Shown piece after piece: positions 37,771 to 63,246 of a DNA stretch of 64,000 bases. Source of the stretch: TM7 phylum sp. oral taxon 349 (lineage in GTDB: Bacteria > Patescibacteriota > Saccharimonadia > Saccharimonadales > Saccharimonadaceae); the NCBI GenBank assembly GCA_018127705.1, contig CP072328.1, positions 248,001-312,000 of the forward strand. The letters run 5' to 3'. The position numbers and the translations under genes were made by a program. The notes under the pieces are model-generated. The model was not told where the DNA came from. It made no database searches and was given only the letters and a program-made list of their open reading frames with translations. The number at the start of each line of letters is the position of its first letter. The stretch's first letter is position 1.

Positions 37771-37869
37771 CGTTTTGCTTAGCGGCAGAGCGCTTGCGCT
37801 ATAAAGTGCCATCTGGTAAAATAGAGTAACGCGCTTTAGTAATTGCGTAGGGCATATACCTACCTCTGC

Positions 37870-37944
37870 GGCCTTATCGTCTAACGGTTAGGACACCAGG
37901 TTTTCATCCTGGCAATCCGGGTTCGATTCCCGGTAAGGTCACCA
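37870..37944 (+). tRNA. tRNA-Glu(TTC), integration site of the mobile element
   Basis: Acceptor GGCCTTA/TAAGGTC, anticodon stem CCAGG/CCTGG, loop TTTTCAT with anticodon TTC, T-loop TTCGATT and encoded CCA. Its last six bases (37939-37944) are part of the direct repeat that recurs at 61325. Confidence 0.95.
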
Positions 37945-39617
37945 TCAAAGGATTTATCATCCATTCGGATACGAAACAGCTCGTTTACCTCTGGTAGCGG
38001 GCTGTTTTTGTGAGTTCCAAACTTTATTTCATCGTAGGTGGGGATTTTGTTAAAGATGGCGGCGAAAAAGGCGGCTTTTCGCAAGGGATTACAGAGGTCA
38101 AGTAGTAGTTCTGGCAGGTGTTCCAAAATATATTTAGCGTATTGCAAGACTTGGTTGAATTCGGCTTGCAAATTAGGCTGATTGGCGATTTCTTTGTCTA
38201 GGTTTGCTAGTTCGTTTTCGGCGTTAACGATATCCTCTTCCAAGTACGTAAGTGCTGTTTTGCTCGTAACAACGCGCATTTTGTCCACGGTCGCCCGAAT
38301 CTGGTTTTGCAGGCTCTGGCGGTGCTCTAGGCGCTGCTGATTAGCTTCTAGCTGCTTTGCTTGGCGTTCGCGCCACAGCTCGGCAATAGCAGCGATAATG
38401 TCATCAACGTACTCTGACTTTACGGTAATAGTCCGTACAAAATCCTCAATCGTCTTGTCGAACTCGGGCTTGGGCACGCGAAAATAATGCCCATTGCGAC
38501 TACAATGATACGCCGGATAATACGCGCCCATCTTGCCACGCGAAGCGCTGCCAGAAAGGGTTTTGCCGCACTTCGGACAAGCAACGACCTGTTTGTACGG
38601 ATATTCTGGATTGTAAATTTGTTTATTTTTCAAATGCTCGGGCACAGATCTACGCTTGATGGTTATCATGTCGCGGCTGTCAATTTCCACAAAAATTCGT
38701 CCGCGATTCGCTTCATTAAAAAGCTCGATGCTAACCAATCCATCAAACTGCGCCTTGACTGGCTGGTCGTGCGTCCATTTTTCTTTGATGATACCGCAAT
38801 AAACCAGTTTACTAGCGTATTGGTCAATCATTTTGGCCGTCATTTGCTTGCCGCCAATTTGCCGCTTAATTTTGGTTCGGTCATATTTATCGCGCACAAT
38901 CGTAACACGCGAGCGAAACCCCATCGAATTTAGTTCGTCCGCGATTTGCTGATTGGTATAAATATGAGCGGCGCGCATTTCAAAAAGTTTGATAATAAAT
39001 TTCGCCTCGTTCTCATCAGGCTTCAAAATCGTACGCCGACCATTTTTCGTATCCACCTTAACACTGCGAAAACCATAGTGCGGACGACGCATCCAATAAC
39101 CGAGCTGAGTGTAGCGAATTTCCGCGCCAATCATCCGACTCATGATGTCGCGCATCTCGTCTTTGGCACGCTCTGCTTCCAAGTATTCCGATTTTTGCGT
39201 TGGGTTAAACTCGCTCCAATAATACTTAAATCCGGTGTGCTCTAACGTGTTAATTTGCTGTTTACCAATTACGCCGTACATATCCTCAAGGGCGATACCC
39301 AGCCGCGTCAACTGTCTCTTCAACGGCGAATAATAATCGCCGCCACCGCGCGTAAAGCGGTCGATTGATTTAATCAGCACGACTTGAAAGCCTTTGCTTT
39401 TGTCTTTGCAGGCGTCGATTACTTTTTGCATCGGCTGCGTTTCGTGTGACGCTGATTCAAGCAAAATAATCGTCTCGGTAATTATGATATTGTGCGCTCT
39501 AGCGTAAGCTTCGCCTTGCTCGCGCTGCGCTTCGGGCGAATCACCGTCAAGACCTTGCTTGTCAGAAGAAACGCGTATCGCCAGCAAACCAATTCGCGGC
39601 TGATTATTTGGAGACAT
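37881..39617 (-). CDS. Large serine recombinase (integrase)
   Basis: The 578-aa protein integrates and excises DNA through a serine-linked intermediate. The resolvase domain has AIRVSSDKQ with the nucleophile Ser and SIDRFTRGGGDY at about 90. The recombinase domain follows, then a zinc ribbon (VVACPKCGKTLSG, then YHCSRNGHYF) and a coiled coil (about 425-490). The reading frame runs through the left attachment repeat and stops inside tRNA-Glu, so its last residues are encoded by attL and would change on excision. Start ATG 39617 is preferred over 39626 because GGAGG lies 10 nt before it. It overlaps the upstream small gene by 14 bp. Confidence 0.93.
   Translation of the reverse strand: MSPNNQPRIGLLAIRVSSDKQGLDGDSPEAQREQGEAYARAHNIIITETIILLESASHETQPMQKVIDACKDKSKGFQVVLIKSIDRFTRGGGDYYSPLKRQLTRLGIALEDMYGVIGKQQINTLEHTGFKYYWSEFNPTQKSEYLEAERAKDEMRDIMSRMIGAEIRYTQLGYWMRRPHYGFRSVKVDTKNGRRTILKPDENEAKFIIKLFEMRAAHIYTNQQIADELNSMGFRSRVTIVRDKYDRTKIKRQIGGKQMTAKMIDQYASKLVYCGIIKEKWTHDQPVKAQFDGLVSIELFNEANRGRIFVEIDSRDMITIKRRSVPEHLKNKQIYNPEYPYKQVVACPKCGKTLSGSASRGKMGAYYPAYHCSRNGHYFRVPKPEFDKTIEDFVRTITVKSEYVDDIIAAIAELWRERQAKQLEANQQRLEHRQSLQNQIRATVDKMRVVTSKTALTYLEEDIVNAENELANLDKEIANQPNLQAEFNQVLQYAKYILEHLPELLLDLCNPLRKAAFFAAIFNKIPTYDEIKFGTHKNSPLPEVNELFRIRMDDKSFDGDLTGNRTRIARMKTWCPNR
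37939..38009 (+). repeat. Left attachment repeat (attL)
   Basis: The first 24 bp (37939-37962), starting in the tRNA-Glu 3' end, are identical to 61325-61348. After a diverged 11-bp patch the similarity resumes for another 21 identical bases (37974-37994) and a hairpin. On the minus strand the same DNA encodes the C-terminus of the recombinase. Confidence 0.85.
37975..38009 (+). terminator. Terminator hairpin downstream of tRNA-Glu (left copy)
   Basis: AACAGCTCG (37975-37983) and CGGGCTGTT (37998-38006, one G-T pair) followed by TTT form a terminator for the tRNA-Glu transcript. It lies inside the recombinase coding region on the other strand. Confidence 0.7.
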
Positions 39618-39786
39618 TTTTATCATCCTCCAATATCGTAATTAGCTTTTTGGCAAACGCACCATCTTCTATAATTTTCTCGACGATTAAATTTGCCACC
39701 AGCCTAATCCGCTGCTCGGTCGTGAACGAAAATTGCTTCACCAGCGGGGCTTTTGGTTTATTTTTACTTCCTTCTGGTCGCGCCAT
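39604..39786 (-). CDS. Small basic protein upstream of the recombinase
   Basis: The 60-aa protein starts MARPEGSKNKPKAP and has a helical second half. AGGAGGG lies just before the ATG. It overlaps the recombinase start, so the two are co-translated. The size and location fit a recombination directionality factor or a regulator, but no family is recognised. Confidence 0.7.
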   Translation of the reverse strand: MARPEGSKNKPKAPLVKQFSFTTEQRIRLVANLIVEKIIEDGAFAKKLITILEDDKNVSK

Positions 39787-39815
39787 AATCCCTCCTGTCG
39801 CGACTCGTCATAACA

Positions 39816-40028
39816 TCAACTAGGCTTAGGCTGCTGCGGACGCCCGCGCCCAGAACGCTCCTGCAAATCCTTTTCAATCAGCTGCTTCAACTCTTTATCG
39901 CCAACCGTCGCTAGCGCCTTAAGCACCAGTTCCGTCAGGCTCATGCCTTGACTATAAGCAACGGCTTTGGCCCGGTTGCGCACTTCTTTTGACGTGTCGA
40001 TTTGTAGCTGAATTCTTGATTGGCTCAT
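39816..40028 (-). CDS. Ribbon-helix-helix DNA-binding protein
   Basis: The 70-aa protein reads MSQSRIQLQIDTSKEVRNRA and continues AVAYSQGMSLTELVLKALATV, matching the ribbon-helix-helix pattern of CopG/Arc repressors and element-borne accessory proteins. The frame extends upstream to 40061, but TATACT seven bases before ATG 40028 supports the shorter form. It heads the leftward recombinase operon and probably regulates it, or acts at the nearby palindrome. Confidence 0.78.
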   Translation of the reverse strand: MSQSRIQLQIDTSKEVRNRAKAVAYSQGMSLTELVLKALATVGDKELKQLIEKDLQERSGRGRPQQPKPS

Positions 40029-40194
40029 TAACCCCAGTATACTACATGGGATGATAGCCAAAAAGCGCTACTGCTTGAAGCCTAGTTTTTCGTGTTATTA
40101 ACGAGCCAGTTTTATGATTAAACCTCTACTTAAATTGTACTACTTGTACTACAAATATTCAATAGTTTTTATCTATTTTATGATGTAAAATATA

Positions 40195-40212
40195 CCGAAT
40201 ATCGATATACGG
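40195..40212. promoter_or_regulatory. Palindromic candidate operator
   Basis: CCGAATATCGATATACGG is an almost perfect inverted repeat centred on ATCGAT, in the 275-bp gap between the divergent RHH and replication-relaxation genes. Upstream at 40138-40151 TACTAC is repeated. It suits binding by a dimeric regulator such as the RHH protein. Confidence 0.4.
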
Positions 40213-40303
40213 CATAATTCATCTATAAAACTACTGTTATCTATTGCTATTTTTCTCTTCTTTGTATATAAATATATTAGAAAGGAATCGTGAAAGGCTG
40301 GTA

Positions 40304-41110
40304 ATGAAAATGGACAAACGTTCAGTTCTCAAGCAGGGGCAGATAGACATACTGGAAACGCTGTACAAATATCGGTTTGGTAGTCGTCAACTGTTGGCGG
40401 ATAGTCTGGGTATTAAGTCGGGTTCAAATTTGTTTGAAAAGTTGAACGTGTTGATGAAGCACGGTTTTGTGGCTAGACGATATGACAAAAGCTACAAATT
40501 GCGAGGTGTGCCAGCGGCGTATTATTTGACACCAAAAGGACTTAGGCAGCTGCAATCAATTCATGGCAGCGAACGCGTCACCGACGCCATCATCAAAGCG
40601 AGCTACCGCGACAAAATCGTTGGTCAATCGTTTGTTAATCATGTGGTTGAAGTCTATGCGCACGCCAATAGATTGCAGCACAAACATCCATCCTTAAAAG
40701 TATTTTTGCGGCGCGAAATGACGCTTTATAGTTACTTTCCAACCAATCCACCCGACGCCTTTTTGTCACTCAAAATGGCTGACGGGTTGCGGCGATTTTT
40801 CTTCGATGTCGTATCCAAAGACACGCCGCCTAGTGCCATTAACCGCCGCCTGGTAAGTTATATGGAATTTTTCGATGACGGCGGCTGGGGCGTGACAGGC
40901 AGCGATTTACCAAAGCTCCTGTTTTTACTGGAAAATCCAGCCGCAGAAAATCGCTTGCGGCGCGCTGCTCATGCCGTGCGGAGCCGGTTTGACTTGGATG
41001 ATGAAATCGAGATATACACGGCGACGACTGAGAGTTTGCTGGGTGAAGATTCTGCGATTTGGTCGAATATTGACGAGCCTGGCGAACCCCTTTCATTAGA
41101 TGGGTTGTGA
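40304..41110 (+). CDS. Replication-relaxation family protein
   Basis: The 268-aa protein matches the pattern of replication-relaxation proteins found on mobile elements. An N-terminal winged helix (LKQGQIDILETLYKYRFGSR to about residue 75) is followed by YYLTPKGLRQL and an alpha/beta C-terminal region with MADGLRRFFFDVV. These proteins are thought to act on plasmid or element DNA at replication or mobilisation. Start ATG 40304 is preferred because GAAAGG lies 8 nt upstream; the frame begins 20 codons earlier. A hairpin-rich noncoding block follows directly. Confidence 0.75.
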   Translation: MKMDKRSVLKQGQIDILETLYKYRFGSRQLLADSLGIKSGSNLFEKLNVLMKHGFVARRYDKSYKLRGVPAAYYLTPKGLRQLQSIHGSERVTDAIIKASYRDKIVGQSFVNHVVEVYAHANRLQHKHPSLKVFLRREMTLYSYFPTNPPDAFLSLKMADGLRRFFFDVVSKDTPPSAINRRLVSYMEFFDDGGWGVTGSDLPKLLFLLENPAAENRLRRAAHAVRSRFDLDDEIEIYTATTESLLGEDSAIWSNIDEPGEPLSLDGL

Positions 41111-41142
41111 ATTAGTTTGAGGATACGTGGGCGTCAATCGGC

Positions 41143-41304
41143 CGTGCGATGATTGCAAGTGCGCCCCGGGCGAGCTTGCAATGGTCGTACGAAAGCCGCC
41201 GCACAGCTTTCAGGATTAGGCTTATTTCGCAAATGACAGACAGATGGCGCGTTTTGTGCGCCAGCGCAGTGCGCGCTAGCTGGCTTGTCTTTTTGTGAAA
41301 TAAG
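41143..41304. repeat. Two large inverted repeats, candidate oriT
   Basis: The 400 bp between 41110 and 41511 has no credible gene. Hairpin 1 (41143-41191) pairs CGTGCGA, ATTGCAAG and CGCCC with their complements around a one-base centre. Hairpin 2 (41221-41304) has outer arms CTTATTTC/GAAATAAG and inner GGCGC/GCGCC. The location just after the replication-relaxation gene fits an origin of transfer or replication. Confidence 0.55.
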
Positions 41305-41510
41305 ATAATGATTCATCAACTAATTTCACCAGCTTTCGTCCTAAGCTCGTTCATTCTTACATCCGCTCATCTTGACTGCGCTAGTAAGGCGCATGTCGAG
41401 TGAGCGGGGTAAGTATGGACGCTGTTTGGTGATGTGTGAATTGAGTGTGAGATCAAGAGTTGAAGCTTTCTTTATTCGGGCAGTTTCTCGTCATACCCAG
41501 GACGGAGAAG

Positions 41511-41795
41511 TTAGCGATTATTTTCTATGATCTCTTGCCAGCCGACACGACCGAGAGAGGCTGTGAGCAAGTCGCCCAACAAGCCTGATTCTTCTAAGCT
41601 GCCTTCAAGTTCATCTCGAATCAACGACTCAAGTTGCTCAGCTTGTTCATATTCATCGCATGTTTTGATAATGCGGCGCACCTCATCGCAGTACGTTTCG
41701 TCGTTCGCAAGCCACAGATTCATTACCCACGTCTCGCGATTACTCCACCCACTATAAGCGGTGGCGGCTGCTACTTGCTTTGCTACGATTGGCAT
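41511..41795 (-). CDS. DUF7249-like small accessory protein
   Basis: The 94-aa protein contains YSGWSNRETWVMNLWLANDE, a hallmark of a family of small proteins common on plasmids and phages whose function is unknown. The rest is acidic and helical. AAGGAGG lies 4-5 nt before the ATG. It stands alone between the hairpin block and the AT-rich cassette. Confidence 0.8.
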   Translation of the reverse strand: MPIVAKQVAAATAYSGWSNRETWVMNLWLANDETYCDEVRRIIKTCDEYEQAEQLESLIRDELEGSLEESGLLGDLLTASLGRVGWQEIIENNR

Positions 41796-41967: not shown

Positions 41968-43377
41968 TTATCTATCGGTAGACCCCACAGGAACGATTAC
42001 ATGGGTTAATGTTATCCCGCTACTTGTTGTCATTGCGTCACGGATTCGATTTTCTATATTTTTTAAGGCATCTACACTATAGTTAAACTTAGCATAATTA
42101 ATGGTCTCGGGGAACAGTAAGCTACTTATCGGCGAAGCATTTTTTTGGCACCCAGTACACCAAGATACTCCATTATCTATAATAAACACGTGCATGGAAA
42201 CGTTGCGCCTTACTGCTTCGTACAAAACCTGAATTCCTTCATGGTTAAACGAGCAATCACCTAGTATAGCTATGATAGGGGTATTAGAGGCTTGATATAG
42301 TCCTATTGCTATCGGGATGCTAGCCCCCATAGAGAGTGCCACATCAACTGTATCCATTGATTCGACAGTAAATTGTGCAATATCAGCGATTACCTTGGCT
42401 CCATAGTGTAATTTTGCCCTACTAACCAGGGCAAAGAGCGGCTCGTATCTAAACCACTTCTTCATTTCAATTGTACCAGCAGCATCAGATACGGGACTCA
42501 GCGGTACTAAACTTTTAGGCTGATATGCGATAGATGCCTTATTGTATAAGTATGGTCCACCAGATTCAATAATATAATTTTGAGAATGACTTTTTAGGTG
42601 TTTATTCAGGGCGTCAGTTGGATTGGGTATCGTATTTATTTTCAACCTACAGCATACTGTTGCATTGCTAACAGTATCATTACAAAAACCAAAGCTAGTG
42701 ATTGCACATTTATTAGAGGAGTGGTTTTTAGTAGTTATGGAATATATACTGTTGGCAGCATCCTGAAATAGCCTCCTCTTTCTTTCAAGCCTCAAACTTT
42801 GCTGCCTAAAATAATATGGATGAACAACATATTTCTGCGGGTTGTTGGGCGCAGGATCTTTATGGATACTATTAATTTTCCTTGTTCTAGTGTATTCTCC
42901 CACGGCTACTAAGGCTTGGTTGGTGATGCGCACTACAATCGGCACATCAAGTTTCTCGGACAAGTAAAAAGAACGTCTTGCAAAATCGTAGGCAGATTGC
43001 AAAGACTCTGGTTCATATAGAAATCCCCCATAACAATCAACTAGCTCTCTGGTGTCTTGGCTTTCCTGCGATCCCCATACTTCAATGTCGTCGGTTACCA
43101 ATACCACCATGCCTGCGTTAACACCTGATATTACAGAGTGACTGTAGGCATCACTTGCTATATTTAATCCTATATTTTTAAATCCCACCAGAGATCTCTT
43201 TCCCCCAACAGAAGCACCATAGGCTTCTCCGTATGCAACCCTTTCATTAACGGATATATTAAAATCAGAGTCTATCTTTTCAAGTACTGCTTCTGATTTG
43301 AATCCTGGAAAACCATATACTAAATCAACACCGCCATCAATAAATCCATCTGCCAAAGCATCAATTATACTACTCAT
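41968..43377 (-). CDS. TPP-dependent enzyme resembling the indolepyruvate oxidoreductase alpha chain
   Basis: The 469-aa protein resembles IorA in domain order. The N-terminal region has LVYGFPGFKSEAVLE, ISVNERVAYGEAYGASVGG, KNIGLNIASDAY and TDDIEVWGSQESQDTREL. The C-terminal TPP-binding region has AILGDCSFNHEGI and IIDNGVSWCTGCQ. The C-terminal 4Fe-4S domain of true IorA is missing, and no IorB partner is nearby, so it may act as a decarboxylase or ligase on a 2-oxo acid instead. It overlaps the kinase gene upstream by ATGA. Codon use is AT-rich, with many ATA and AGA, unlike the host genes. Confidence 0.72.
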   Translation of the reverse strand: MSSIIDALADGFIDGGVDLVYGFPGFKSEAVLEKIDSDFNISVNERVAYGEAYGASVGGKRSLVGFKNIGLNIASDAYSHSVISGVNAGMVVLVTDDIEVWGSQESQDTRELVDCYGGFLYEPESLQSAYDFARRSFYLSEKLDVPIVVRITNQALVAVGEYTRTRKINSIHKDPAPNNPQKYVVHPYYFRQQSLRLERKRRLFQDAANSIYSITTKNHSSNKCAITSFGFCNDTVSNATVCCRLKINTIPNPTDALNKHLKSHSQNYIIESGGPYLYNKASIAYQPKSLVPLSPVSDAAGTIEMKKWFRYEPLFALVSRAKLHYGAKVIADIAQFTVESMDTVDVALSMGASIPIAIGLYQASNTPIIAILGDCSFNHEGIQVLYEAVRRNVSMHVFIIDNGVSWCTGCQKNASPISSLLFPETINYAKFNYSVDALKNIENRIRDAMTTSSGITLTHVIVPVGSTDR

Positions 43378-44057
43378 ATCGACTCAAGTATGCTATCTGC
43401 TATTAAGCTTTTATCTAATGGTAAGTTGTTCTGTTTTTTAACAAAATTTATTACTAAGTTGGCATTGTCTCTCAGGTTGTCAGGATCGTTACTCGAATTT
43501 ATGTGTAACAATTTCTTGTGTGGACTATAGGTAGAGGTTAATATACCATCGTACTCGGTGTTAAAAAACTCATATGCACTCTCCGTCTTCAAAACCTCTG
43601 CGCTAATTTTTCTGTCGAGCCGGGCGGTATATGTTTCACTGTCCTTGGGTCTAACAAAAACAACACAGTCAGGAACGGAAACTAGCCCGTCATGAATAGC
43701 TTTTCTGTATGCATATTTGGCGTATTCATATGCGTCATATTCATTGGGTGCTTTTATCATTTTTGTATATTTTTGAAACAATATTAAGGATATAAAGAAT
43801 CTGTCTATGAAGACTACCGTGTCATTAGTGTACTTCTCTATCGTATTTTTACGCAGCATATCCAATTTAATGAAAAAATCAACGTCCTTAAATGCGACCT
43901 CTTGGGACATATGTGGGTAATCTGGGTACTGAGAGGTTGAGTCTACATACCTGTCATATTCACCAACACAAGCAAAGCCGCTGTTTTTATTCAGGTAATT
44001 GAGTAAAGTAGTCTTTCCTGCGTAGGCGTGACCTTCAATTGCACATAATACAGTCAT
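43374..44057 (-). CDS. P-loop kinase, thymidylate-kinase-like
   Basis: The 227-aa protein has Walker A IEGHAYAGKTTLLNYL at residues 7-22, then VVFIDRFFISLILFQ as the DR-type nucleoside-binding segment and VFVRPKDSETYTARLDRK as a lid-like region. This fits deoxynucleoside or nucleotide kinases. The substrate is unknown. It is the first gene of the leftward arm of the cassette and starts just after a divergent promoter region. It resembles, but does not duplicate, the kinase encoded on the opposite strand. Confidence 0.72.
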   Translation of the reverse strand: MTVLCAIEGHAYAGKTTLLNYLNKNSGFACVGEYDRYVDSTSQYPDYPHMSQEVAFKDVDFFIKLDMLRKNTIEKYTNDTVVFIDRFFISLILFQKYTKMIKAPNEYDAYEYAKYAYRKAIHDGLVSVPDCVVFVRPKDSETYTARLDRKISAEVLKTESAYEFFNTEYDGILTSTYSPHKKLLHINSSNDPDNLRDNANLVINFVKKQNNLPLDKSLIADSILESI

Positions 44058-44058
44058 A

Positions 44059-44094
44059 TTGACAAATATACTATTTTTATTGTAACATTGTCAA
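44059..44094. promoter_or_regulatory. Overlapping divergent promoters of the AT-rich cassette
   Basis: TTGACA occurs at 44059-44064 (plus) and again on the minus strand at 44089-44094. The minus one has GTATAT (44066-44071) at 17 nt. The plus one has TAACAT (44083-44088) at 18 nt. Both point outwards to the two arms. Confidence 0.5.
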
Positions 44095-44098
44095 TGAC

Positions 44099-44696
44099 AT
44101 GAAACCTAAATTTATTCATCTTGAAGGCACAGACCTTTCAGGCAAGACTTCTGTTGCAAAACGCTTACTGCGTAAAACACCTTTTTTTATATCAACACAA
44201 TAGTATATCGACTCATAGTCCTGAAGGGTTGGGCAGCGAACTTGACAAGATGGATGAACTGGGGCTGTATAGCCATACGACCTTGAGTCTAGGATATGCC
44301 GCTTGTGTGTTAGCTGACATTGATCGATTTGAATGGCCCCGCAAAGACACGGTTCAAGATTCAAGCTCAAGCGTTAGATGTCTGAGTAGATTGGCGATTG
44401 ACGGACAGGATGCCTTATTCGACATCGTGCGCTCAAGAGTCGAACTTGATCATCCAAGATTCACCAGATCATACTATCTGACAACTACTATTGATGAGAG
44501 GGTAAAAAGAGCAAACAATATGATTAGTCTTACAAGAAATGACCTTATGATTCTACACGACACAAAGAGGTTTGCTGCAATGGACAAAGTAGCACTATCC
44601 ATATCTAGAGAATTGTTTAACTCTACAGTCATAGATACAACAAATGCAAGTCCCGATGAAATAGCAAATATAATAGAGCAAGACCTTAATGAATAG
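44099..44696 (+). CDS. Thymidylate-kinase-like protein, frame interrupted at a T7 run
   Basis: From ATG 44099 the frame reads MKPKFIHLEGTDLSGKTSVA with a clear Walker A and then stops after 34 codons. The remainder continues in the next frame to 44696 (THSPEGLGSELDKMDELGLY onwards) as a normal kinase-like sequence of about 165 residues. The switch is at a run of seven T (44182-44188): six T would restore one frame of about 198 aa. Phase variation, transcriptional slippage, a sequencing error or recent inactivation are possible. The end overlaps the dehydrogenase gene by 8 bp. Confidence 0.6.
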
Positions 44697-46095
44697 TAAA
44701 ATTAGAATAGCCATAATTGGAGGCGCTGGTTTTTGGGCTAATGACGGACATCTACGCAACATCCATAAAGCTGTAGTCGAGGAACCGGATATAGAGGCAA
44801 AAGTAGTTGCGATCGTAGACCCAATAAACCCCAAACTTCAGTCAAGCAAAAGAAAAGAGCATCTTGAAAGGGTTCTGCTGACGGACAATCCCTTATGGAT
44901 CAATACAGACAGTCATAGTAGCGCCTCATCTGTCGTGAAAGCTTTAAAGCATCTGAAGATAAACTTGGCCATTATAGCATCTCCCCCTGTATATCATGCG
45001 GAATACGTCCTAGAGTGCATAAAAAATGATATTAATGTAGTTTGCGATAAGCCGATAGTCTCCAGAAAAAACGCATCTCACGACACTAAGGCAGCCTCTT
45101 CAATATCAGAAGATTTAGATATAATATGCAAAGAGTATGATAAGTCTTTGTTGCGAAATCCTAGACTACTCTGTGTATCTATATTGCGCAGAAGAGGGCT
45201 ATCGGGATTTTCTGAAGTTGCTAGAGAGCTGAAAAGTGTACATGAAGCTTCAGGTGCCGGCATTAACAATATGTCAATTGTCGTAAACAGCGGTAAGTAT
45301 CTGCACCCCAACGAGCTAACCATCAATGGTGCTCACGGCTATCACGACGGAATTGGGGCATTGTCCCATTCGGCGTACCACTACATAGATATACTATCTT
45401 GGTATATGTCTATAGCCCATGGAGCAGCGCAATACCTACGCCCTAGACTAAATCATGTAATGAGAGTACATGATTATTTGGAATCTGGTTTATATAAACT
45501 AACCCCACTTTTTAAGAGTAGTTCTGTGCAAATACCCCAATTGTCGGATTCTATCTTAAAATCAGAACTAAATACTAGCTACTCCATAGAAATACTTGAC
45601 AAAAATTTACGACTGCTAGGAAATATACTATTCACCTTTAATCAGCTTAGCTATTGTCCCCGAACCTTACCACAGCTAAGCAGTAATTTAGATCCAGGTA
45701 ATTACGCTGGTGGAGGAAGAATATCTAACTGCATTATAGATATTCATCAGGGCGCTATGCAAAACTGTTATATATACAAAAACGACACAGTCTTTGAACC
45801 GTATACGCTAAATACTAAAATAACAAAACACCCCAGCTTAACAAGCAATCCTGCTACCACAGAAACTAACTTAAGCATTGTGTATCCATATGAAAATGGA
45901 TACACTTTAGCTGATGCTTACAGGGATCTATTTAGCTATTTATCAGATAGTAAATCTCAAATGATACAAAGCCCCGTACTGCGACCCCTATTTGAAGAGC
46001 GTATAGCGACTGACCTATATAGCAATTTTTACGAGCTCCTTTCAGATGAGAATAATACAAGAGAGATAAGGATATTAAATGATATACAGAGATGA
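44689..46095 (+). CDS. Gfo/Idh/MocA-type oxidoreductase
   Basis: The 468-aa protein starts with a Rossmann fold (IRIAIIGGAGFWANDGHL) and has LAIIASPPVYHAEYVLEC and VVCDKPIVS, the nicotinamide-side signature of the Gfo/Idh/MocA family, whose members often act on sugars. A larger C-terminal substrate domain follows (GAHGYHDGIGALSHSAYHYI has the expected Asp/His positions). It is longer than the usual 340-400 aa. It overlaps the kinase upstream by 8 bp and the SHMT-like gene downstream by 17 bp, so the rightward arm is one operon. Confidence 0.8.
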   Translation: MNSKIRIAIIGGAGFWANDGHLRNIHKAVVEEPDIEAKVVAIVDPINPKLQSSKRKEHLERVLLTDNPLWINTDSHSSASSVVKALKHLKINLAIIASPPVYHAEYVLECIKNDINVVCDKPIVSRKNASHDTKAASSISEDLDIICKEYDKSLLRNPRLLCVSILRRRGLSGFSEVARELKSVHEASGAGINNMSIVVNSGKYLHPNELTINGAHGYHDGIGALSHSAYHYIDILSWYMSIAHGAAQYLRPRLNHVMRVHDYLESGLYKLTPLFKSSSVQIPQLSDSILKSELNTSYSIEILDKNLRLLGNILFTFNQLSYCPRTLPQLSSNLDPGNYAGGGRISNCIIDIHQGAMQNCYIYKNDTVFEPYTLNTKITKHPSLTSNPATTETNLSIVYPYENGYTLADAYRDLFSYLSDSKSQMIQSPVLRPLFEERIATDLYSNFYELLSDENNTREIRILNDIQR

Positions 46096-47353
46096 ACAAG
46101 ACTACATTAAGTTAATAGCCAACATTGCACACGATGTGCATAAAAATAAAGATTTCCTACATCTAACACCTAATGAAAATATTCTATCTCAAACAGCTAG
46201 AAATATATACAGCACACAATTATCTGATAGATATTACTTTGGTGAATCCAGCAATGGACGCAACGTTGATTTGTACGGATTTACTGCGCTCGGGTATCCC
46301 GGTATTGATCGACTAATACAAGAAGCTAAAGATGTATTTAAAAAGCGACTATCAGTATGTCAGGTTAATGTCTCACCTCTGTCTGGAATACATGCTATGA
46401 TATGTGCCATAGTGGGCGCAACTAAACCTGGCGACAACGTGCTTACATTAGGTAAACTCCTAGGAGGACACTACGCCACCGACCATGTCCTTAAAATGTT
46501 AGGCAGGAATCCCATAAACATACCCGCTAGTAAAAATAGAAACAAACCCGTAGACACGGAATCTTTAACACGACTCATAAAGCAAACACCAGTAAGAGCT
46601 ATATATATTGACCCTGCCTATATCATAGACGTGATAGACGTGAACCTATTACGTAGTATTATGGGGGATGAGACCATAATTATATATGACGCAAGCCATA
46701 CGCTGGGTCTAATATTGGGAGGAGCTTACAAAAACCCCTTAACAAACGGGGCGAATATTATATGTGCCAATACACATAAGACCTTTCCTGGTCCTCATAA
46801 GGGAATTATACTATATGGCGACAAGAAAATCTCTTTAGCTCAAGAGTCTGATGCTATTCTAAATAAAGGTTTATATTCTAGCGTACATACCCATTCTACA
46901 GTGGCGCTTGCTATCACCACTCTTGAAATGGATCTCTACGGAGCTGATTATTCTAATAAGATTATAGAAAATGCCAACAACCTGGGCGGATATCTGGCTG
47001 CCTGTGGAGTAGTTTCCAATACGGCTATAAATGGTCACTACACCAACACTCACCAGATACATATACCTATTGATAAATATAGTAAATCATACTCCGATCT
47101 CTACGATAGGTTTTATGAAAGCCGCCTTGCAGTTGCTTTTGACGTAGATCCTTACGGATGTAGATTTATAAGACTTGGCCTTCAGGAGATCACAAGAAGG
47201 GGTATAGATTCTAGCGGACTTGAGCTCTTGGCTCATACAATTAGCCAAATATTAACCGATTATCAACCTGAGGTATGTGGTAAAAATATCAGTTCAGTCA
47301 GACAATCTTTAGGTGATGAAATTAAATATTCGTTTGACAAGGGGGTAGTATGA
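46079..47353 (+). CDS. SHMT-like PLP enzyme (GlyA paralogue in cargo)
   Basis: The 424-aa protein follows the serine hydroxymethyltransferase fold. LHLTPNENILSQTAR replaces the LIPSENYVS motif, VSPLSGIHAMICAIVGATK lies at the substrate site, and ANTHKTFPGPHKGIILYG carries the PLP Lys. It differs strongly from the chromosomal glyA at 22.6 kb, which already provides SHMT activity. SHMT-like enzymes in biosynthetic clusters often act as transaldolases that make beta-hydroxy amino acids, and that is a reasonable hypothesis here. It overlaps both neighbours. Confidence 0.82.
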   Translation: MIYRDEQDYIKLIANIAHDVHKNKDFLHLTPNENILSQTARNIYSTQLSDRYYFGESSNGRNVDLYGFTALGYPGIDRLIQEAKDVFKKRLSVCQVNVSPLSGIHAMICAIVGATKPGDNVLTLGKLLGGHYATDHVLKMLGRNPINIPASKNRNKPVDTESLTRLIKQTPVRAIYIDPAYIIDVIDVNLLRSIMGDETIIIYDASHTLGLILGGAYKNPLTNGANIICANTHKTFPGPHKGIILYGDKKISLAQESDAILNKGLYSSVHTHSTVALAITTLEMDLYGADYSNKIIENANNLGGYLAACGVVSNTAINGHYTNTHQIHIPIDKYSKSYSDLYDRFYESRLAVAFDVDPYGCRFIRLGLQEITRRGIDSSGLELLAHTISQILTDYQPEVCGKNISSVRQSLGDEIKYSFDKGVV

Positions 47354-47880
47354 ACGAAGAAAGCATAAAAATAAAAATATCTAAGCCTTTTGGCAACTTA
47401 TATCGCAACAGATGTGTACTAGTAGCAGCCTTTGACGATAGTCATAATCTACTGCTAGGAGCAAAACCCGATTTTTATCCGCCTGGAATAGTCAGGTTAC
47501 TTGGAGGGGGGGTAGACGAAGGAGAGAATATCAAAGATGCTGCGTGTCGGGAGTTGTTGGAAGAAACTGGGGTTGCTGTACATAAAGATAAAATGCACAT
47601 AAAGACTAAATTTAGTATACGAGCCATCGACTGTGATGGCAATGCTTACAACAATGACACATATTTAGTATGTGCAAATATTGAATCTGCTCCCGTAAAC
47701 CCGGGTGACGACGTAAAGCAGATAATTAAATATAAAAGCCAAGACCTAGAAAGACTAATAGACAACTACAGGAAACTAAGCCCTAGTCTTTGGTATAAAG
47801 GAGCGGAGGGGGAATTTAGTTGGTATGATTACGCACAAGTTTATACAGTGATTCACAATAAGGTGCTTGATATGTTCTAG
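47350..47880 (+). CDS. Nudix hydrolase of the cargo cassette
   Basis: The 176-aa protein has a complete Nudix box, GGVDEGENIKDAACRELLEE followed by TGV, after an N-terminal strand region (RCVLVAAFDDSHNLLLGAKP). It overlaps the SHMT-like gene by ATGA. It probably processes an activated nucleotide intermediate of the cassette, but the substrate is not inferable. Confidence 0.85.
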   Translation: MNEESIKIKISKPFGNLYRNRCVLVAAFDDSHNLLLGAKPDFYPPGIVRLLGGGVDEGENIKDAACRELLEETGVAVHKDKMHIKTKFSIRAIDCDGNAYNNDTYLVCANIESAPVNPGDDVKQIIKYKSQDLERLIDNYRKLSPSLWYKGAEGEFSWYDYAQVYTVIHNKVLDMF

Positions 47881-47893
47881 AGGGTCGCACTAT

Positions 47894-48760
47894 ATGAAAC
47901 TGTCTGTAATAATGCCAGTTCACAATGGAGAGAAATATATAAAAGAAACTCTCGATTGTTTACTTCGTCAGTCATTAGGTGATCAAGTTGAGTACATCAT
48001 AGTCAATGATGGATCTACGGATCAAACAGCGAGAGTGCTATCGGGGATAAAAGATTCACGAATGACAATCGTACATAGAGGTGTTTGTCACGGGGTGTCG
48101 CAGGCTAGAAATCTAGGGTTATCGCTAGCTAGGGGCGATTATGTTATGTTTGTTGATTCAGATGATCTGTTTCATGGAAGAATGCTGGAAATACTGTATA
48201 ATCTCGCGGCAAGAAGCAATGCCGACATATCTATATGTAATTATGAAAGAGTATCTTTGTTGACGCGTAAGACTAGTATAGGCATAAACGACACATCTCA
48301 CATACCAACAGCGACATTCAAGGCCTTGGATATGCGTCAAAGTATATTTAATACGTTTGATGGTTTTGTTTGGAATAAAGTTTTTAACAGAAAGTTCTTG
48401 ATAAAAAACAATATTCTTTTCGATGATAGGTTATCAATATGTGAAGACAGCCTATTTGTATATAAAAGTATATTAAGCGCTGATAGAATCTGTTTCACTA
48501 ACCGTTTGCTAATTAAATATAAGGTGGATGATTCTGCAAGCGCAAGCGCTGGCGCAAAATTTTTCATAAGCGATATATGCTATGCAGTAGATGAGCTAGC
48601 TCGTTTTTTAATAAGAATAAACAAATATGCAATATTTGAATATAGTTTTAAGCTTTGGGCTGAGAGAAAGTGCTCCTGGGTTCGTACAATGATAGATGGT
48701 GCTTATTCCGCTCGTATTGAGGAGATTATGAGAAAATATAAACTGAACGATAAAGGATAG
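47894..48760 (+). CDS. Family 2 glycosyltransferase
   Basis: The 288-aa protein has the GT-A fold signatures of GT2 enzymes: MKLSVIMPVHNGEKYI, YIIVNDGSTDQTA, and VMFVDSDDLFHGRMLE with the metal-binding DSDD. It lacks membrane segments. Start ATG 47894 is preferred, with AGAGGG upstream, over an ATG at 47867 inside the previous gene. It is the last gene of the rightward arm and suggests that a glycosylated product or surface glycan is made. Confidence 0.88.
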   Translation: MKLSVIMPVHNGEKYIKETLDCLLRQSLGDQVEYIIVNDGSTDQTARVLSGIKDSRMTIVHRGVCHGVSQARNLGLSLARGDYVMFVDSDDLFHGRMLEILYNLAARSNADISICNYERVSLLTRKTSIGINDTSHIPTATFKALDMRQSIFNTFDGFVWNKVFNRKFLIKNNILFDDRLSICEDSLFVYKSILSADRICFTNRLLIKYKVDDSASASAGAKFFISDICYAVDELARFLIRINKYAIFEYSFKLWAERKCSWVRTMIDGAYSARIEEIMRKYKLNDKG

Positions 48761-48850: not shown

Positions 48851-48880
48851 ATCTCTGGAGGGCATCTCCAGAGATATTTT
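48851..48880 (+). terminator. Terminator of the cargo cassette
   Basis: ATCTCTGGAG (48851-48860) pairs perfectly with CTCCAGAGAT (48866-48875) and is followed by ATTTT. Confidence 0.85.
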
Positions 48881-48931: not shown

Positions 48932-49318
48932 ATGACAAAAACTACTGTATCCAAAAATCAGTACACCGATTCACGCGATTTCATGACAAGCCTGCTGTTT
49001 CGTAAATGGACTATCGCAATTATTCTTTCTCTCGGGGCTGAGACTAAACGCTATTCTGCGCTGCATCGTTCTCTTCCGGGGGTGACTCAAAAAGTGCTCA
49101 CCGAGCACCTCAAGCAGTTAGAACGCGCCGGCATCGTCCGGCGCTTTTTCTATCCGACGATTCCGCCACGGGTCGAATATGAATTGACGAAAACTGGTCT
49201 TGAATTATTGAAGTTGACGGGCGATATAACCATGTGGTTTGATTCTCATTCTGAAGTTCTGCACAAGTCCCAGAAAACCTACGACAAGAAACGCGTGACC
49301 GTACTGCGGCGATTATAA
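48932..49318 (+). CDS. HxlR-family transcriptional regulator
   Basis: The 128-aa winged-helix protein matches HxlR regulators: LLFRKWTIAIILSLGAETKR, then FSALHR-like YSALHRSLPGVTQKVLTEHL and LERAGIVRRFFYPTIPPRVE. There is no Cys at the redox position used by some members. GGGAGG lies 5 nt before the ATG. Codon use is host-like, in contrast to the cassette just upstream. It could regulate the cassette or the secretion operon. Confidence 0.88.
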   Translation: MTKTTVSKNQYTDSRDFMTSLLFRKWTIAIILSLGAETKRYSALHRSLPGVTQKVLTEHLKQLERAGIVRRFFYPTIPPRVEYELTKTGLELLKLTGDITMWFDSHSEVLHKSQKTYDKKRVTVLRRL

Positions 49319-49878: not shown

Positions 49879-50220
49879 ATGGTGTCAAGAAAAACATATT
49901 GTTTGGCGGCAATATTTATCGCGGCTGGAGCGCCACTTGTATTGGCGAACGTAGCCTTAGCTGCACCTGCGGGTGTCAGCAATGTCGAGAATTTTATACG
50001 AAGCGTCATCCAAGTGGTGGCGGGACTAGCCGGTCTGGTAGCGACCGGCTTTTTTGTTGCCGGCGGCTTTACCTATATCACTAGTTCGGGAAATCCCGAG
50101 CAACTCGACAAGGCAAAGCGTACTATCACATGGTCGGCAATTGGTTTGGCAATTGTCATCGCGGCGTTTGTTTTGGCGAATATCGTAACGACTTTAGCGC
50201 GACAAGCCTTCGGAGGATAG
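49879..50220 (+). CDS. VirB2/TrbC-like T4SS pilin subunit
   Basis: The 113-aa protein has a signal peptide with an Ala-rich cleavage region (VLANVALAAPAG) and two hydrophobic helices (about 40-64 and 83-105) joined by SSGNPEQLDKAKRTI, the pattern of TrbC/VirB2 pilins. It starts the secretion operon. AAAGGGAG lies 3-4 nt before the ATG. It is followed after 6 bp by the VirB6-like gene. Confidence 0.82.
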   Translation: MVSRKTYCLAAIFIAAGAPLVLANVALAAPAGVSNVENFIRSVIQVVAGLAGLVATGFFVAGGFTYITSSGNPEQLDKAKRTITWSAIGLAIVIAAFVLANIVTTLARQAFGG

Positions 50221-50226
50221 TCACCC

Positions 50227-51741
50227 ATGTTCGACTTTGTCGATATTTTTACTAGCAATTTAGTATTCTTTGCCGATACGGCTGGTGCCATAAAAACTGT
50301 GCGCGATTATGTTTTGCCGACAGCCAAAATTTTATCTGGCATAGCGTCGTTGGCTTGCGCTTTCTTTTTGGCTCATGCTGGTTATATTTACATGATCAGT
50401 AGTGGCAAGCCAGACCGTATGGAATATGCTAAAAGTATTGCCAAAAAAGCCGTGATTGGGCTGGTCATCGTGCTGGCAGCTGTGACGATAGTTTCTATTT
50501 TGAATGGTTCATATCAAGCGGTGCAAAATCCAAACGACGCAAACCTACCGAACCTGCAAGCCGTTACACCCAAGTCAGAAAACAACGGTTTGATCGAAAT
50601 GATTATCAAAGCCGTGACGGGATTATTGTCGTCAATCATTAACGCCATAGCCTCACCGTTTTTGAACGCATTAGAATTTTTCACCAAATCAACGCCGCTG
50701 ATGGCGAGCAACAAAGCCGTATTTAACTTATGGCTAGCAATCGTTGGCATTGCTGATGTGCTGCTGATTTTAATCGTGGCATTAGTCGGATTTCAGGTCA
50801 TGAGCGCGTCAAGTTTTGGTTTTGACGAAGTTGGAGTCAAACACCTACTGCCGCGCATAGCGCTGATATTTTTACTAATGAACACCTCAATATTTTTGAT
50901 TGATGGCATCATTAGTTTATCTAACGTTCTCATCTCGGCAGTCAATCAAGTTTCGGGTGCATCGACCGTTTGGGGTACGCTCATCAAAGTTGTCGAAAAA
51001 ACGTCCGGTCAGGGCGTGGCGGCGCTGTTAATCATGGTGGCATTTTTGATTTGCTCGGTCATATTGCTGGTGTATTATGTTATGCGCTTGATCACTTTGT
51101 TCATCGGCACTGTCCTGTCACCACTGGTGAGTATGCTGTGGCTGGTGCCAGGGTTTCGTGACTTTGCCGAAACTTCGATGAAGACGTTCCTATCAACAAT
51201 TTTCGTTTTGTTTGTTCATGTGGTTATCTTGCAATTAGCATCGTCGTTGTTCTCTGGCATGGCTACCACTGGTAATAATGCTATACCCGACACCTTGATG
51301 GCGATGGTAGCGGGCATAGCAACTATTCTGACTTTGCTAAAAGTTCAAGGTGTGATGATGCAATTTAGCTTCGTTAGCATGGGTGCGCGCAATCTAAAGA
51401 AACTGGGCGGTCAATTTATGAACGGCGTCAGCTACATGACGGGCACTGGCTCGAAAGTGGCACACAAAACTACCCAGCGAGTAAAGAATACTACTCACGC
51501 CGCCAAAAAAGCCCGAGTTCATTCAACCCTCGAAACAGTGGCGCGCCAAACAAAATCGCCGATGAAAGTAAGTTATCTGAATAAAAAAGGCGATGCGGAA
51601 ATCACCTATTCGGTTAATCCACGCAGTAAAAATAGTCCAACCGTTGTTAATATGCCCGAGTCAAAACCGCTAAAAACTGGTACAACTTACCGTGCTGGCT
51701 CGAAAATAAAATCGACCAAACAACGAGGCAAAGAATCATGA
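50227..51741 (+). CDS. VirB6/TrbL-like membrane channel protein with N-terminal VirB2-like domain
   Basis: The 504-aa protein has two parts. Residues 1-95 repeat the plan of the upstream pilin: two helices joined by SSGKPDRMEYAKSIAKKA, with ITSSGNPEQLDKAKRT at the same place in the pilin. Residues 120-400 contain at least six hydrophobic helices, as in VirB6/TrbL inner-membrane proteins. The tail (about 415-504) is basic and probably cytoplasmic. It likely forms the membrane channel of the T4SS. Its stop overlaps the PrgI gene by ATGA. Confidence 0.75.
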   Translation: MFDFVDIFTSNLVFFADTAGAIKTVRDYVLPTAKILSGIASLACAFFLAHAGYIYMISSGKPDRMEYAKSIAKKAVIGLVIVLAAVTIVSILNGSYQAVQNPNDANLPNLQAVTPKSENNGLIEMIIKAVTGLLSSIINAIASPFLNALEFFTKSTPLMASNKAVFNLWLAIVGIADVLLILIVALVGFQVMSASSFGFDEVGVKHLLPRIALIFLLMNTSIFLIDGIISLSNVLISAVNQVSGASTVWGTLIKVVEKTSGQGVAALLIMVAFLICSVILLVYYVMRLITLFIGTVLSPLVSMLWLVPGFRDFAETSMKTFLSTIFVLFVHVVILQLASSLFSGMATTGNNAIPDTLMAMVAGIATILTLLKVQGVMMQFSFVSMGARNLKKLGGQFMNGVSYMTGTGSKVAHKTTQRVKNTTHAAKKARVHSTLETVARQTKSPMKVSYLNKKGDAEITYSVNPRSKNSPTVVNMPESKPLKTGTTYRAGSKIKSTKQRGKES

Positions 51742-52244
51742 AGACAACAGTCGTTCCCGCACAAGTTACTACCGTGGAAGACCGGATTATCGGTAAGCTT
51801 GGCTTTTCGCAAATCGTGCTTTTGATGATTCCTGTTTTCTTGAGTACGGGAATTTTCACATTGCTGCCACCGGTGATGAACGGTGCGCTTCATAAATACG
51901 TTTTGATGGCGTTAAGTTTGATTACTTGCGGAATTTTGTCGATTCGCGTTAAGGGCAAAATTATCGCGCTTTGGCTGGTGACGGTGCTACGCTACAATTT
52001 ACGACCGAAATATTATTTGTTTGATAAAAATACCACCGCATTTCGCAATGAATATAAAAATACTTCGCGCGAGGATGAAGAAGTCATAAATCAGCCAGCC
52101 AAAAAGCAGCAAAAGCCAGAAAAATTAGACGATATATCAACTATCAAAACCCGCCAAATTATAGACGACCCAACCGCTGATGTTCGTTTTGAAACTGATA
52201 AGAAAGGGGGTTTGCATGTTCGGTTTACGAAAGTCAAACACTAA
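51738..52244 (+). CDS. PrgI family (VirB3-like) T4SS protein
   Basis: The 168-aa protein begins with VPAQVTTVEDRIIGKLGFSQ, the N-terminal box of PrgI proteins. Two adjacent membrane helices follow (about 28-48 and 55-72), and the tail is polar. PrgI takes the VirB3 place next to VirB4 in Gram-positive-type systems. Overlaps with both neighbours place it in the operon. Confidence 0.85.
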   Translation: MKTTVVPAQVTTVEDRIIGKLGFSQIVLLMIPVFLSTGIFTLLPPVMNGALHKYVLMALSLITCGILSIRVKGKIIALWLVTVLRYNLRPKYYLFDKNTTAFRNEYKNTSREDEEVINQPAKKQQKPEKLDDISTIKTRQIIDDPTADVRFETDKKGGLHVRFTKVKH

Positions 52245-52857
52245 ATCTAACGCCAGGCGGCAGATTGCGCTAAAGGGTGTGCGCGACGGAATTTTATTAT
52301 TTCCGCAGAATAATTATCGGGCAATTTTGTCCGTTTCGGCGCTGAATTTTGAGCTGCGTAGCGAGGATGAGCAAGACGCAATCATTGATACCTACGAAAG
52401 TTTTCTCAATTCGATTGGTTGGCCGATTCAAATTTTAGTACGCACGCGCGAAATTGATATGGACGGATATTTAGAGGATTTGAACTACCGATTGCAGAGC
52501 GAGACGATTCCCGTTTACAAAACTCAACTGAAAAATTACGATGAATTTATTCGTTCGCTCATCACCGACAACAAGATTTTGACACGGCATTTTTATATCA
52601 TTATTCCTTTTCGACCGACCGACAACAAAGCTGATTTTGATTTAATCCGCGAACAGCTCAAACTCCGCATTGATATTATCGCCAAAGGTATGGCGCGGCT
52701 CGGCATGCGCGCTGATCAGCTAGATAGCCTCGAAGTGCTTGATTTGTTCTATAGTTTTTACAGCCCAGTGCAAGCAAAAATTCAGCCGCTAACTGAACGC
52801 GCATTGCAAACAATTCACACCGCACTTGTGCTAGATGGGAGTAAAATTAATGACTAG
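52216..52857 (+). CDS. TraC-like T4SS protein preceding VirB4
   Basis: The 213-aa protein (MFGLRKSNTKSNARRQIALK onward) has RDGILLFPQNNYRAILSVSALNF and FYIIIPF segments similar to the N-terminal region of VirB4/TraC ATPases, but lacks P-loop motifs. In related systems this domain is a separate gene before VirB4. Start ATG 52216 is preferred because AAAGGGGG lies 5 nt before it; the open frame begins 12 codons earlier. It overlaps virB4 by 8 bp. Confidence 0.7.
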   Translation: MFGLRKSNTKSNARRQIALKGVRDGILLFPQNNYRAILSVSALNFELRSEDEQDAIIDTYESFLNSIGWPIQILVRTREIDMDGYLEDLNYRLQSETIPVYKTQLKNYDEFIRSLITDNKILTRHFYIIIPFRPTDNKADFDLIREQLKLRIDIIAKGMARLGMRADQLDSLEVLDLFYSFYSPVQAKIQPLTERALQTIHTALVLDGSKIND

Positions 52858-61324: not shown

Positions 61325-61397
61325 TCACCATCAAAGGATTTATCATCCGTCCAGGTCTAAAACAGCTCGTTTACCTCTGGCAATCGAGCTGTTTTTT
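61325..61397 (+). repeat. Right attachment repeat (attR)
   Basis: The 24-bp core 61325-61348 is identical to 37939-37962. The following DNA repeats the 21-bp stretch and hairpin of the left copy. A perfect stem AACAGCTCG/CGAGCTGTT with T residues (61361-61397) makes a terminator that probably belonged to tRNA-Glu before insertion. 61398-61561 shows no gene. Confidence 0.85.
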
Positions 61398-63098: not shown

Positions 63099-63246
63099 AT
63101 TCACATATACTAGATTTCGAGAGTGTGCTTAAGTACAGGCGTCGCCTTTATTATCTCACGGCTATCACTCCTAAGATAGATTTTGTCACTACTGAATTTA
63201 TTCACTACCTCACAATGTATCATTGCTGTGCTAAAATATATAGGTA

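Follow-up and report, generated by a model that had tools for sequence, protein, structure and literature searches.

A recurring metabolic gene cassette with a putative threonine transaldolase, carried on a predicted integrative conjugative element of a saccharibacterium

A cassette of overlapping metabolic genes was found within an integrative element of ~23.4 kb in the genome of TM7 phylum sp. oral taxon 349 (assembly GCA_018127705.1; genome G000 in this work). The DNA analyzed, referred to as the window, comprises 64,000 nucleotides (contig CP072328.1, positions 248,001 to 312,000 of the forward strand), and coordinates given without a contig name refer to it. The cassette (41968 to 48760) encodes a thiamine pyrophosphate (TPP) enzyme related to IorA and a P-loop kinase (kinase 1), both read leftward, and a second P-loop kinase (kinase 2), a Gfo/Idh/MocA dehydrogenase, a pyridoxal phosphate (PLP) enzyme resembling serine hydroxymethyltransferase (SHMT), a Nudix hydrolase, and a family 2 glycosyltransferase (GT2), these five read rightward. 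The gene list was verified with open reading frames and with Pfam and NCBIfam scans. The set recurs in other genomes, the SHMT-like protein has its ancestry in the threonine transaldolase branch and retains active-site residues, and the TPP enzyme has no ferredoxin domain in a genome that has no IorB. On the evidence of its sequence, the cassette may be a small specialized-metabolism operon, carried as cargo of a saccharibacterial integrative conjugative element, in which a decarboxylase and a transaldolase act in turn; the full scheme falls a little short of an even chance.

The element begins at the 3' end of a tRNA-Glu gene (37870 to 37944). A 24-base att repeat at its left end (37939 to 37962, + strand) starts in the final bases of the tRNA gene and is exactly matched at the right end (61325 to 61348, +), with further matching bases past the 24. 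A large serine recombinase (37881 to 39626, −; Resolvase N domain, Pfam PF00239), the 3' end of whose gene overlaps the tRNA gene, and a type IV secretion system (T4SS) operon with VirB2-, VirB6-, VirB4-, and VirD4-like genes (49879 to 57779, +) accompany the repeats. The VirB4- and VirD4-like genes have Pfam matches, and the VirB2 and VirB6 names were given by eye. A recombinase and a T4SS, together with att repeats at a tRNA gene, mark it as a predicted integrative conjugative element. A candidate transfer or replication gene (40244 to 41110, +; Replic_Relax, PF13814, above cut-off) encodes the single relaxase candidate noticed in the element in a general Pfam scan. It is considered a candidate because the gene or its homolog adjoins the recombinase in three elements (this one and those of genomes G034 and G020) and because most Patescibacterial T4SS clusters are without a relaxase, as stated in an excerpt of a survey (PMC12102498). 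The same excerpt describes a VirB4/VirD4/VirB6/VirB2-like set of this kind; in contrast to Patescibacterial T4SS generally, the set described here lies within an element with att repeats, a recombinase, and metabolic cargo.

Of 60 genomes, 14 (the source genome included) gave a match to the recombinase at 1e-30. A congener (G009) carries a 98% identical recombinase and lacks the cassette: positions 36000 to 41435 gave a 94% alignment to this genome, which then, apart from a short match in the att region, resumed only at 63212. Neither cassette nor T4SS was matched in the 32 kb compared, and the TPP gene was not found in the whole G009 genome at 1e-3. Beside homologous recombinase genes and T4SS gene runs, the elements of G034 and G054 hold genes that resemble those of type I restriction-modification systems (by eye), and those of G020 and G019 hold different cargo genes. 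The cassette is therefore cargo of an element family whose cargo changes, and its status as mobile cargo, proposed in an earlier sequence-only reading of the window, can be regarded as nearly certain. A search of plasmids at the DNA level gave no match to the cassette.

Recurrence of the gene set was clearest in the congener UBA6223, where the order is SHMT-like, Nudix-box protein, an unassigned protein where the GT would be, kinase 1, TPP enzyme, Gfo, a divergent P-loop kinase, and SDR. This locus adjoins EF-G and ribosomal protein genes (by eye). Pairwise identities to the window proteins were 37% for the SHMT-like protein, 29% for the TPP enzyme, 28% for kinase 1, and 27% for Gfo (phmmer E values of 1.2e-76, 5.6e-39, 2.5e-7, and 1.2e-18, respectively), and 32% for Nudix and 28% for kinase 2 (broken frame). 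The Nudix pair gave no phmmer match at 1e-3; another Nudix protein on the UBA6223 contig matched at 2.8e-5. Because the SHMT-like protein, TPP enzyme, Gfo, and kinase 1 occur together in a second species at 27 to 37% identity, the recurrence is not due to chance, and the cassette is in all likelihood a real functional set. Further partial sets were observed. The Parcubacterium RAAC4_OD1_1 (contig L028) has Gfo, TPP enzyme, and SHMT-like genes contiguously, followed by an alanine racemase gene (above cut-off), and G417 and G773 have Gfo, TPP enzyme, and kinase 2 contiguously. In G064, the TPP frame is shortened (263 amino acids [aa]) and kinase 2 adjoins it; serine-recombinase-like and conjugation-ATPase-like frames lie nearby (by eye), and the 20 kb fetched contained no Gfo. 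In the stretches fetched from the six genomes with a cassette-type TPP gene, Gfo and kinase 2 were each present in five (kinase 2 weakly in UBA6223), the SHMT-like gene in three, and kinase 1 and Nudix each in two (Nudix in UBA6223 by motif).

The earlier description of an unfamiliar conserved set thus holds for its core, with Gfo in the TPP locus in five of six genomes and the SHMT-like gene joining in three. Differing neighborhoods elsewhere speak in part against the set for the SHMT-like gene, which is apart from the TPP gene in 10 of 13 genomes, and for long Gfo, whose neighbors are different in G319 and on actinobacterial plasmids. Nothing closely matching a capsule or nucleotide-sugar pathway was noticed, and the gene set did not turn up among the literature matches listed.

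The SHMT-like protein (46079 to 47353, +) is encoded separately from the host glyA (22687 to 23862, −), as the sequence-only reading had it. Its best NCBIfam model was TIGR04506, the fluorothreonine transaldolase of Streptomyces cattleya, from which it differs in length (424 aa versus a model of 609 positions) and in score (219 bits versus a cut-off of 650); it thus has neither the cut-off score nor the two-domain structure of that equivalog. The SHMT subfamily model gave 153 bits (cut-off, 335), and Pfam SHMT, at 59.6 bits, exceeded its cut-off of 27. TIGR04506 outscored the SHMT model in all five Patescibacterial members scanned, always under the TIGR04506 cut-off. In a sequence search of the Protein Data Bank (PDB), 7k34 came first (138 bits) and an archaeal SHMT next (111 bits). 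The available text of two reports (PMC10495429; PMC8072733) gives 7K34 as ObiH, which is accordingly the best match with a solved structure.

A contig profile scan with the window protein alone found no relative, and a two-row alignment found 12 loci, all titled Patescibacteria; the patterns were drawn from two Patescibacterial sequences and can miss relatives elsewhere. These loci (UBA6223 among them) and G000 form the set of 13 SHMT-like genomes. A search of viral contigs found none, and at 1e-70 the protein was matched in 2 of 332 genomes, G000 and G244. High-scoring glyA is also carried by 11 of the 13 genomes, the exceptions being G429 and G435. In a first tree, the 13 SHMT-like rows formed a clade (100/100) whose sister (95/88) was the S. 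cattleya row, itself scoring 1,207 bits in TIGR04506, and 13 GlyA rows formed a separate clade (100/100). In a second tree, from which two long-branch rows (L112 and L113) were removed and to which G244 was added, the Patescibacterial clade was again sister to fluorothreonine transaldolase (98/92), and the split between the 21 transaldolase-like and Patescibacterial rows and those of GlyA and archaeal SHMT had values of 100/98.

Residues Y55, H131, D204, K234, and R366 of ObiH are conserved in all 13 SHMT-like proteins; according to the available part of one report (PMC10495429), H131, D204, and K234 are conserved from one transaldolase cluster to another and the loop region varies among clusters. 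At the site of ObiH E107, Met occurs in 13/13 SHMT-like proteins and Asn in 13/13 GlyA proteins. The motif THK[ST].[PF]G[PT].KG was present in 13/13 SHMT-like proteins, in 9/9 transaldolase-like rows (of which only ObiH and the S. cattleya row are characterized), and in 0/13 GlyA proteins. Conversely, the folate-binding loop motif of GlyA was present in 0/13, 0/9, and 11/13, respectively. The protein is thus probably a non-folate, transaldolase-type PLP enzyme. The suggestion of the sequence-only reading that it might act as a transaldolase is supported by the trees as to lineage, and the activity is a prediction.

As an alternative, the protein could be a further enzyme of the GlyA type (a serine/glycine or threonine aldolase) that supplies glycine or one-carbon units among unrelated cargo genes. 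The SHMT fold and the catalytic residues common to GlyA would allow this, phmmer recognized no cassette gene around 10 of the 12 loci (several contigs being short), and exchange of GlyA among Patescibacteria is described in an excerpt of one report (PMC12455944). However, the host has its own glyA, the loop motif is missing in 13/13, the clade is separate (100/98), and the protein shares cassette company in three genomes, all of which makes this alternative very unlikely. GlyA identity was set aside on the first three of these points.

The TPP enzyme (41968 to 43377, −) was best matched by the IorA model of NCBIfam, at 189.8 bits against a cut-off of 650.9, and by PF02775 (TPP_enzyme_C) above its cut-off. 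A GD...(D/C)(N/D) stretch is present in 6/6 cassette-type proteins, and Glu45, which we take to be catalytic, is invariant in 4/4. These six proteins grouped together to the exclusion of ten IorA-type proteins (100/100) and, at 443 to 469 aa (with one fragment of 263), are shorter than the latter (497 to 616 aa). None of the six has the CxxCxxC ferredoxin motif. The IorB family (PF01558) is missing in five of the six genomes, including G000, and in G773 it occurs in a 545-aa frame away from the TPP locus. An IorA-like enzyme without its ferredoxin domain, as first described, is therefore what the window encodes; plain IorA identity was set aside in view of the low equivalog score, the lack of CxxCxxC, and the lack of PF01558 in G000. 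With both IorB and the ferredoxin missing, non-oxidative decarboxylation would be the simplest activity in terms of TPP enzymology. The TPP profile matched 53 genomes at 1e-3, of which eight IorA-type loci were put in the tree; the tree leaves out many short C-terminal matches, mostly frames of ~220 to 310 aa. The cassette-type clade was found in 2 of 60 relatives, 1 of 392 genomes in a class draw that included G000, and 3 of 281 genomes in the class of G417. Plasmids gave seven TPP matches (of three opened, two adjoin IorB and one is unannotated), phages gave three records, and the PDB sequence search gave no match.

We infer the reactions, step order, substrates, and product of the scheme as follows. 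One P-loop kinase would make a phosphorylated precursor of polyol or sugar type, which the long Gfo/Idh/MocA dehydrogenase would oxidize. The ferredoxin-less TPP enzyme would decarboxylate the resulting 2-oxo acid non-oxidatively to an aldehyde, and the SHMT-like protein, as a threonine transaldolase, would convert the aldehyde to a modified beta-hydroxy-amino acid, as in obafluorin. A kinase might then phosphorylate, the Nudix hydrolase trim, and the GT2 glycosylate the product. The nearest precedent is the obafluorin pathway of Pseudomonas fluorescens, in which, according to the accessible text (PMC5490192), the ThDP decarboxylase ObaH and the SHMT-like L-threonine transaldolase ObaG (ObiH) act in sequence; the same two enzyme types are predicted in the cassette. 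ObaH is a phenylpyruvate decarboxylase, whereas the cassette TPP enzyme belongs to another, IorA-related family. In further contrast to obafluorin, no nonribosomal peptide synthetase was recognized in the cassette, which has kinases, Gfo, Nudix, and GT in addition.

A second pairing of a TPP enzyme with an SHMT-like protein is present in G244, with a TPP enzyme of a different kind and in an amino acid pathway. There, an SHMT-like gene from this branch is flanked by genes for an acetolactate synthase (ALS)-type TPP enzyme and a threonine-synthase-like PALP protein on one side and genes for [LysW]-aminoadipate kinase (above cut-off) and an ArgD/LysJ-like aminotransferase on the other. In this operon (L131, 3415 to 12198), it comes after LysX- and ArgC/LysY-like frames (by eye). 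ALS might also serve ordinary branched-chain synthesis. More broadly, a Patescibacterial threonine transaldolase branch, sister to fluorothreonine transaldolase, might team with TPP enzymes of at least two kinds (IorA-type and ALS-type) to make beta-hydroxy-amino-acid products, and the saccharibacterial pathway might travel whole on a conjugative element, with its product serving competition, defense, or dealings with the host cell; in relatives of that element, genes of restriction type take the place of the pathway. This broader idea is tentative, and we consider it doubtful in its entirety.

A recurrent mobile pathway centered on a transaldolase, in a genome of ~1 Mb, would be a case of specialized metabolism that moves by conjugation in Patescibacteria and would add to the few known transaldolases, which are sought after as biocatalysts; the cassette also gives a short list of candidate enzymes. 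Patescibacteria are thought to make little, and an excerpt of one recent report (PMC12455944) describes biosynthetic gene clusters as infrequent where genomes are streamlined. Among the literature matches listed, none connected threonine transaldolase to Patescibacteria, CPR, or Saccharibacteria.

Several observations weigh against the decarboxylase-transaldolase scheme: above all, each of the two enzymes often occurs without the other, the Gfo of the window has diverged strongly, and many IorA relatives have likewise lost the ferredoxin domain. The TPP and SHMT-like enzymes are not obligate partners, both being present in three of the six genomes with the TPP gene and in three of the 13 with the SHMT-like gene: G417, G773, and G064 show only a glyA-type PF00464 match, 10 of the 13 SHMT-like genomes (several fragmented) have no cassette-type TPP enzyme, and G244, outside the 13, has no match to one in the 17-kb stretch. 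The window Gfo is only 22 to 27% identical to other Gfo proteins, sits on a long branch, and may have another substrate. Seven of the ten IorA-type comparators also lack CxxCxxC, so that loss of the ferredoxin domain is not special. The TIGR04506 and IorA scores are far under their cut-offs, and ObiH itself was on the GlyA side in the first tree (92/67). H131, D204, K234, and R366 also occur in 13/13 GlyA proteins and do not discriminate, and the motifs were written after the sequences had been viewed. Kinase 2 and Nudix of UBA6223 are weakly tied to those of the window (Nudix by motif), and the broken kinase 2 frame may mean a pathway that is partly dead here or an assembly error. The comparators without ferredoxin motif and the two weak UBA6223 links lower the odds of the scheme.

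The window Gfo (44689 to 46095, +; PF01408) is a divergent copy of a long type (~470 to 500 aa) with homologs in UBA6223, RAAC4_OD1_1, G417, and G773. In the Gfo tree, it and the G290 protein are long branches that meet, and the tree tells little about either. At 1e-20, long Gfo was found in 4 of 379 genomes (G000, G417, G319, and the more distant G290). In G319, it occurs with an APH-type kinase, a 2-phosphosulfolactate-phosphatase family protein, and a radical SAM protein. A PDB sequence search with the G417 Gfo gave weak matches (best E, 0.0065). The same protein is 32 to 34% identical over 96 to 98% in 7 of 10 plasmid records matched (Streptomyces, Embleya, and Kitasatospora). The two plasmid Gfo proteins tested share a C-terminal motif, and an APH-type kinase is near Gfo. 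Among the six plasmid neighborhoods opened, the APH kinase, a flavin oxidoreductase, and PIG-L were common, and an Ldh-type oxidoreductase was annotated in most. In contrast to the cassette, these clusters have CitE-like lyase, MaoC, GNAT, Ldh-type and flavin oxidoreductases, and PIG-L as neighbors, and no TPP or SHMT-like gene was among their listed features. The recurring cluster on plasmids L085 to L090 consists of CitE-like lyase, MaoC, GNAT, APH, Ldh-type and flavin oxidoreductases, long Gfo, phosphotransferase, and PIG-L. Divergent from Gfo in G417 (L056, 7410 to 7967) and G773 (L095, 7230 to 7799) are genes for proteins that look alike, of 185 aa and 189 aa, respectively; that of G417 had no meaningful family match.

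These neighborhoods bear on a different chemistry, in which the TPP enzyme would be a carboligase that couples a sugar or 2-oxo acid with an acyl or aldehyde unit, Gfo would reduce or epimerize the product, the SHMT-like protein would act elsewhere in the pathway as an aldolase or hydroxymethyl transferase, and the GT would attach a branched sugar or cyclitol. TPP loci without the SHMT-like gene exist, and long Gfo in the actinobacterial clusters keeps company with APH-type kinases and a PIG-L deacetylase, as well as a phosphodiester-glycosidase-like gene in the one plasmid cluster tested, without TPP or SHMT-like genes among the listed features. Yet the SHMT-like gene accompanies Gfo and TPP genes in three divergent genomes, and the same branch stands beside the ALS-type enzyme in G244. 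We rate the carboligase chemistry as rather unlikely.

The rightward arm ends with the Nudix hydrolase (47350 to 47880, +; PF00293) and the GT2 (47867 to 48760, +; PF00535, 6.4e-32). That the GT2 closes the operon is consistent with a surface glycan modification cassette, in which an amino acid or amino sugar decoration would be put on a surface polysaccharide by the GT2 and would aid attachment to, or exclusion from, the host cell. The Gfo relative of G290, directly 5' of a GT2-looking gene (by eye), fits the same idea. However, the cassette has one GT, no flippase, polymerase, or sugar-nucleotide synthesis gene was recognized in it, and the UBA6223 protein in the GT position had no Pfam match. 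A surface glycan function seems unlikely on this evidence.

Returning to the enzymes of the decarboxylase-transaldolase scheme, the sequence-only reading named two thymidylate-kinase-like proteins. P-loop kinases they are, and the likeness to thymidylate kinase is weak. Kinase 1 (43374 to 44057, −; homolog in UBA6223) is nearer to deoxynucleoside kinases, with Pfam dNK and AAA_28 just above cut-off. For kinase 2, weak dTMP-kinase similarity was found in the G417 homolog (22.7 bits versus a cut-off of 83.25). Kinase 2 has no single open frame in the window (44099 to 44696, +): a P-loop piece (44099 to 44203, from an ATG at 44099) and a longer piece (44121 to 44696) are in different frames. The intact homologs of G773, G417, and G064 matched the two pieces at 4e-7 to 2e-5 and at 2e-27 to 4e-23, respectively (four-sequence set), and UBA6223 matched them at 4e-6 and 0.001; phmmer at 1e-3 gave no match of the longer piece to UBA6223. 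The G417 kinase 2 was not found in plasmids and had no match in the PDB sequence search, where kinase 1 gave matches at chance level. Near kinase 2 and the TPP gene, a histone-deacetylase-family gene was seen in G064 (L096, 7329 to 8240; Pfam) and in G773 (L095, 6333 to 7256; by eye). A 472-aa protein directly 3' of kinase 2 in G773 (L095, 11314 to 12732) had no Pfam or NCBIfam match.

The listed neighbors within the cassette overlap by 4 to 17 bases; the overlap of GT2 with Nudix hinges on a TTG start and is zero with the ATG at 47894. The 41-base gap between the divergent arms (44058 to 44098) has promoter-like sites on both strands by consensus match only and is a putative divergent promoter region. 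A terminator-like hairpin (48851 to 48875, +; 11 pairs, loop of 3, T-rich tail) follows GT2. As classes, neither promoter-like sites (31 versus 25.3 ± 5.2 in shuffles) nor terminator-like sites (6 versus 3.8 ± 2.1) are clearly above shuffles. G+C content is 0.388 in the cassette, 0.446 in the T4SS part, and 0.484 in the chromosome on the left; the right end of the element is equally AT-rich (0.392), so that low G+C is not peculiar to the cassette. Third-position G+C is 0.32 to 0.40 in cassette genes and 0.38 in the gene at 58787; it is 0.46 to 0.52 in the recombinase, Replic_Relax, and three T4SS genes. Open reading frames, Pfam and NCBIfam scans, G+C, and the site scan agree with the first description of the genes as divergent, AT-rich, and overlapping, with a terminator-like hairpin where that description had a strong terminator.

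Other genes of the element include a small backbone gene left of the cassette (41511 to 41795, −), with a homolog in the G019 element (5.7e-16), an HxlR-type regulator (48932 to 49318, +; PF01638), and an HNH-type gene (named by eye). In the Arsenophonus plasmid L013 (20.7 kb), an SHMT-like gene occurs with a dioxygenase, a methyltransferase, a threonine-aldolase-family gene, and panBCE. Its product groups with ObiH in both trees and, among the plasmid proteins scanned, scores higher in the SHMT model than in TIGR04506. A secreted CHAP-like protein (by eye) is encoded at 54625 to 55227 of the window, between the VirB4- and VirD4-like genes.

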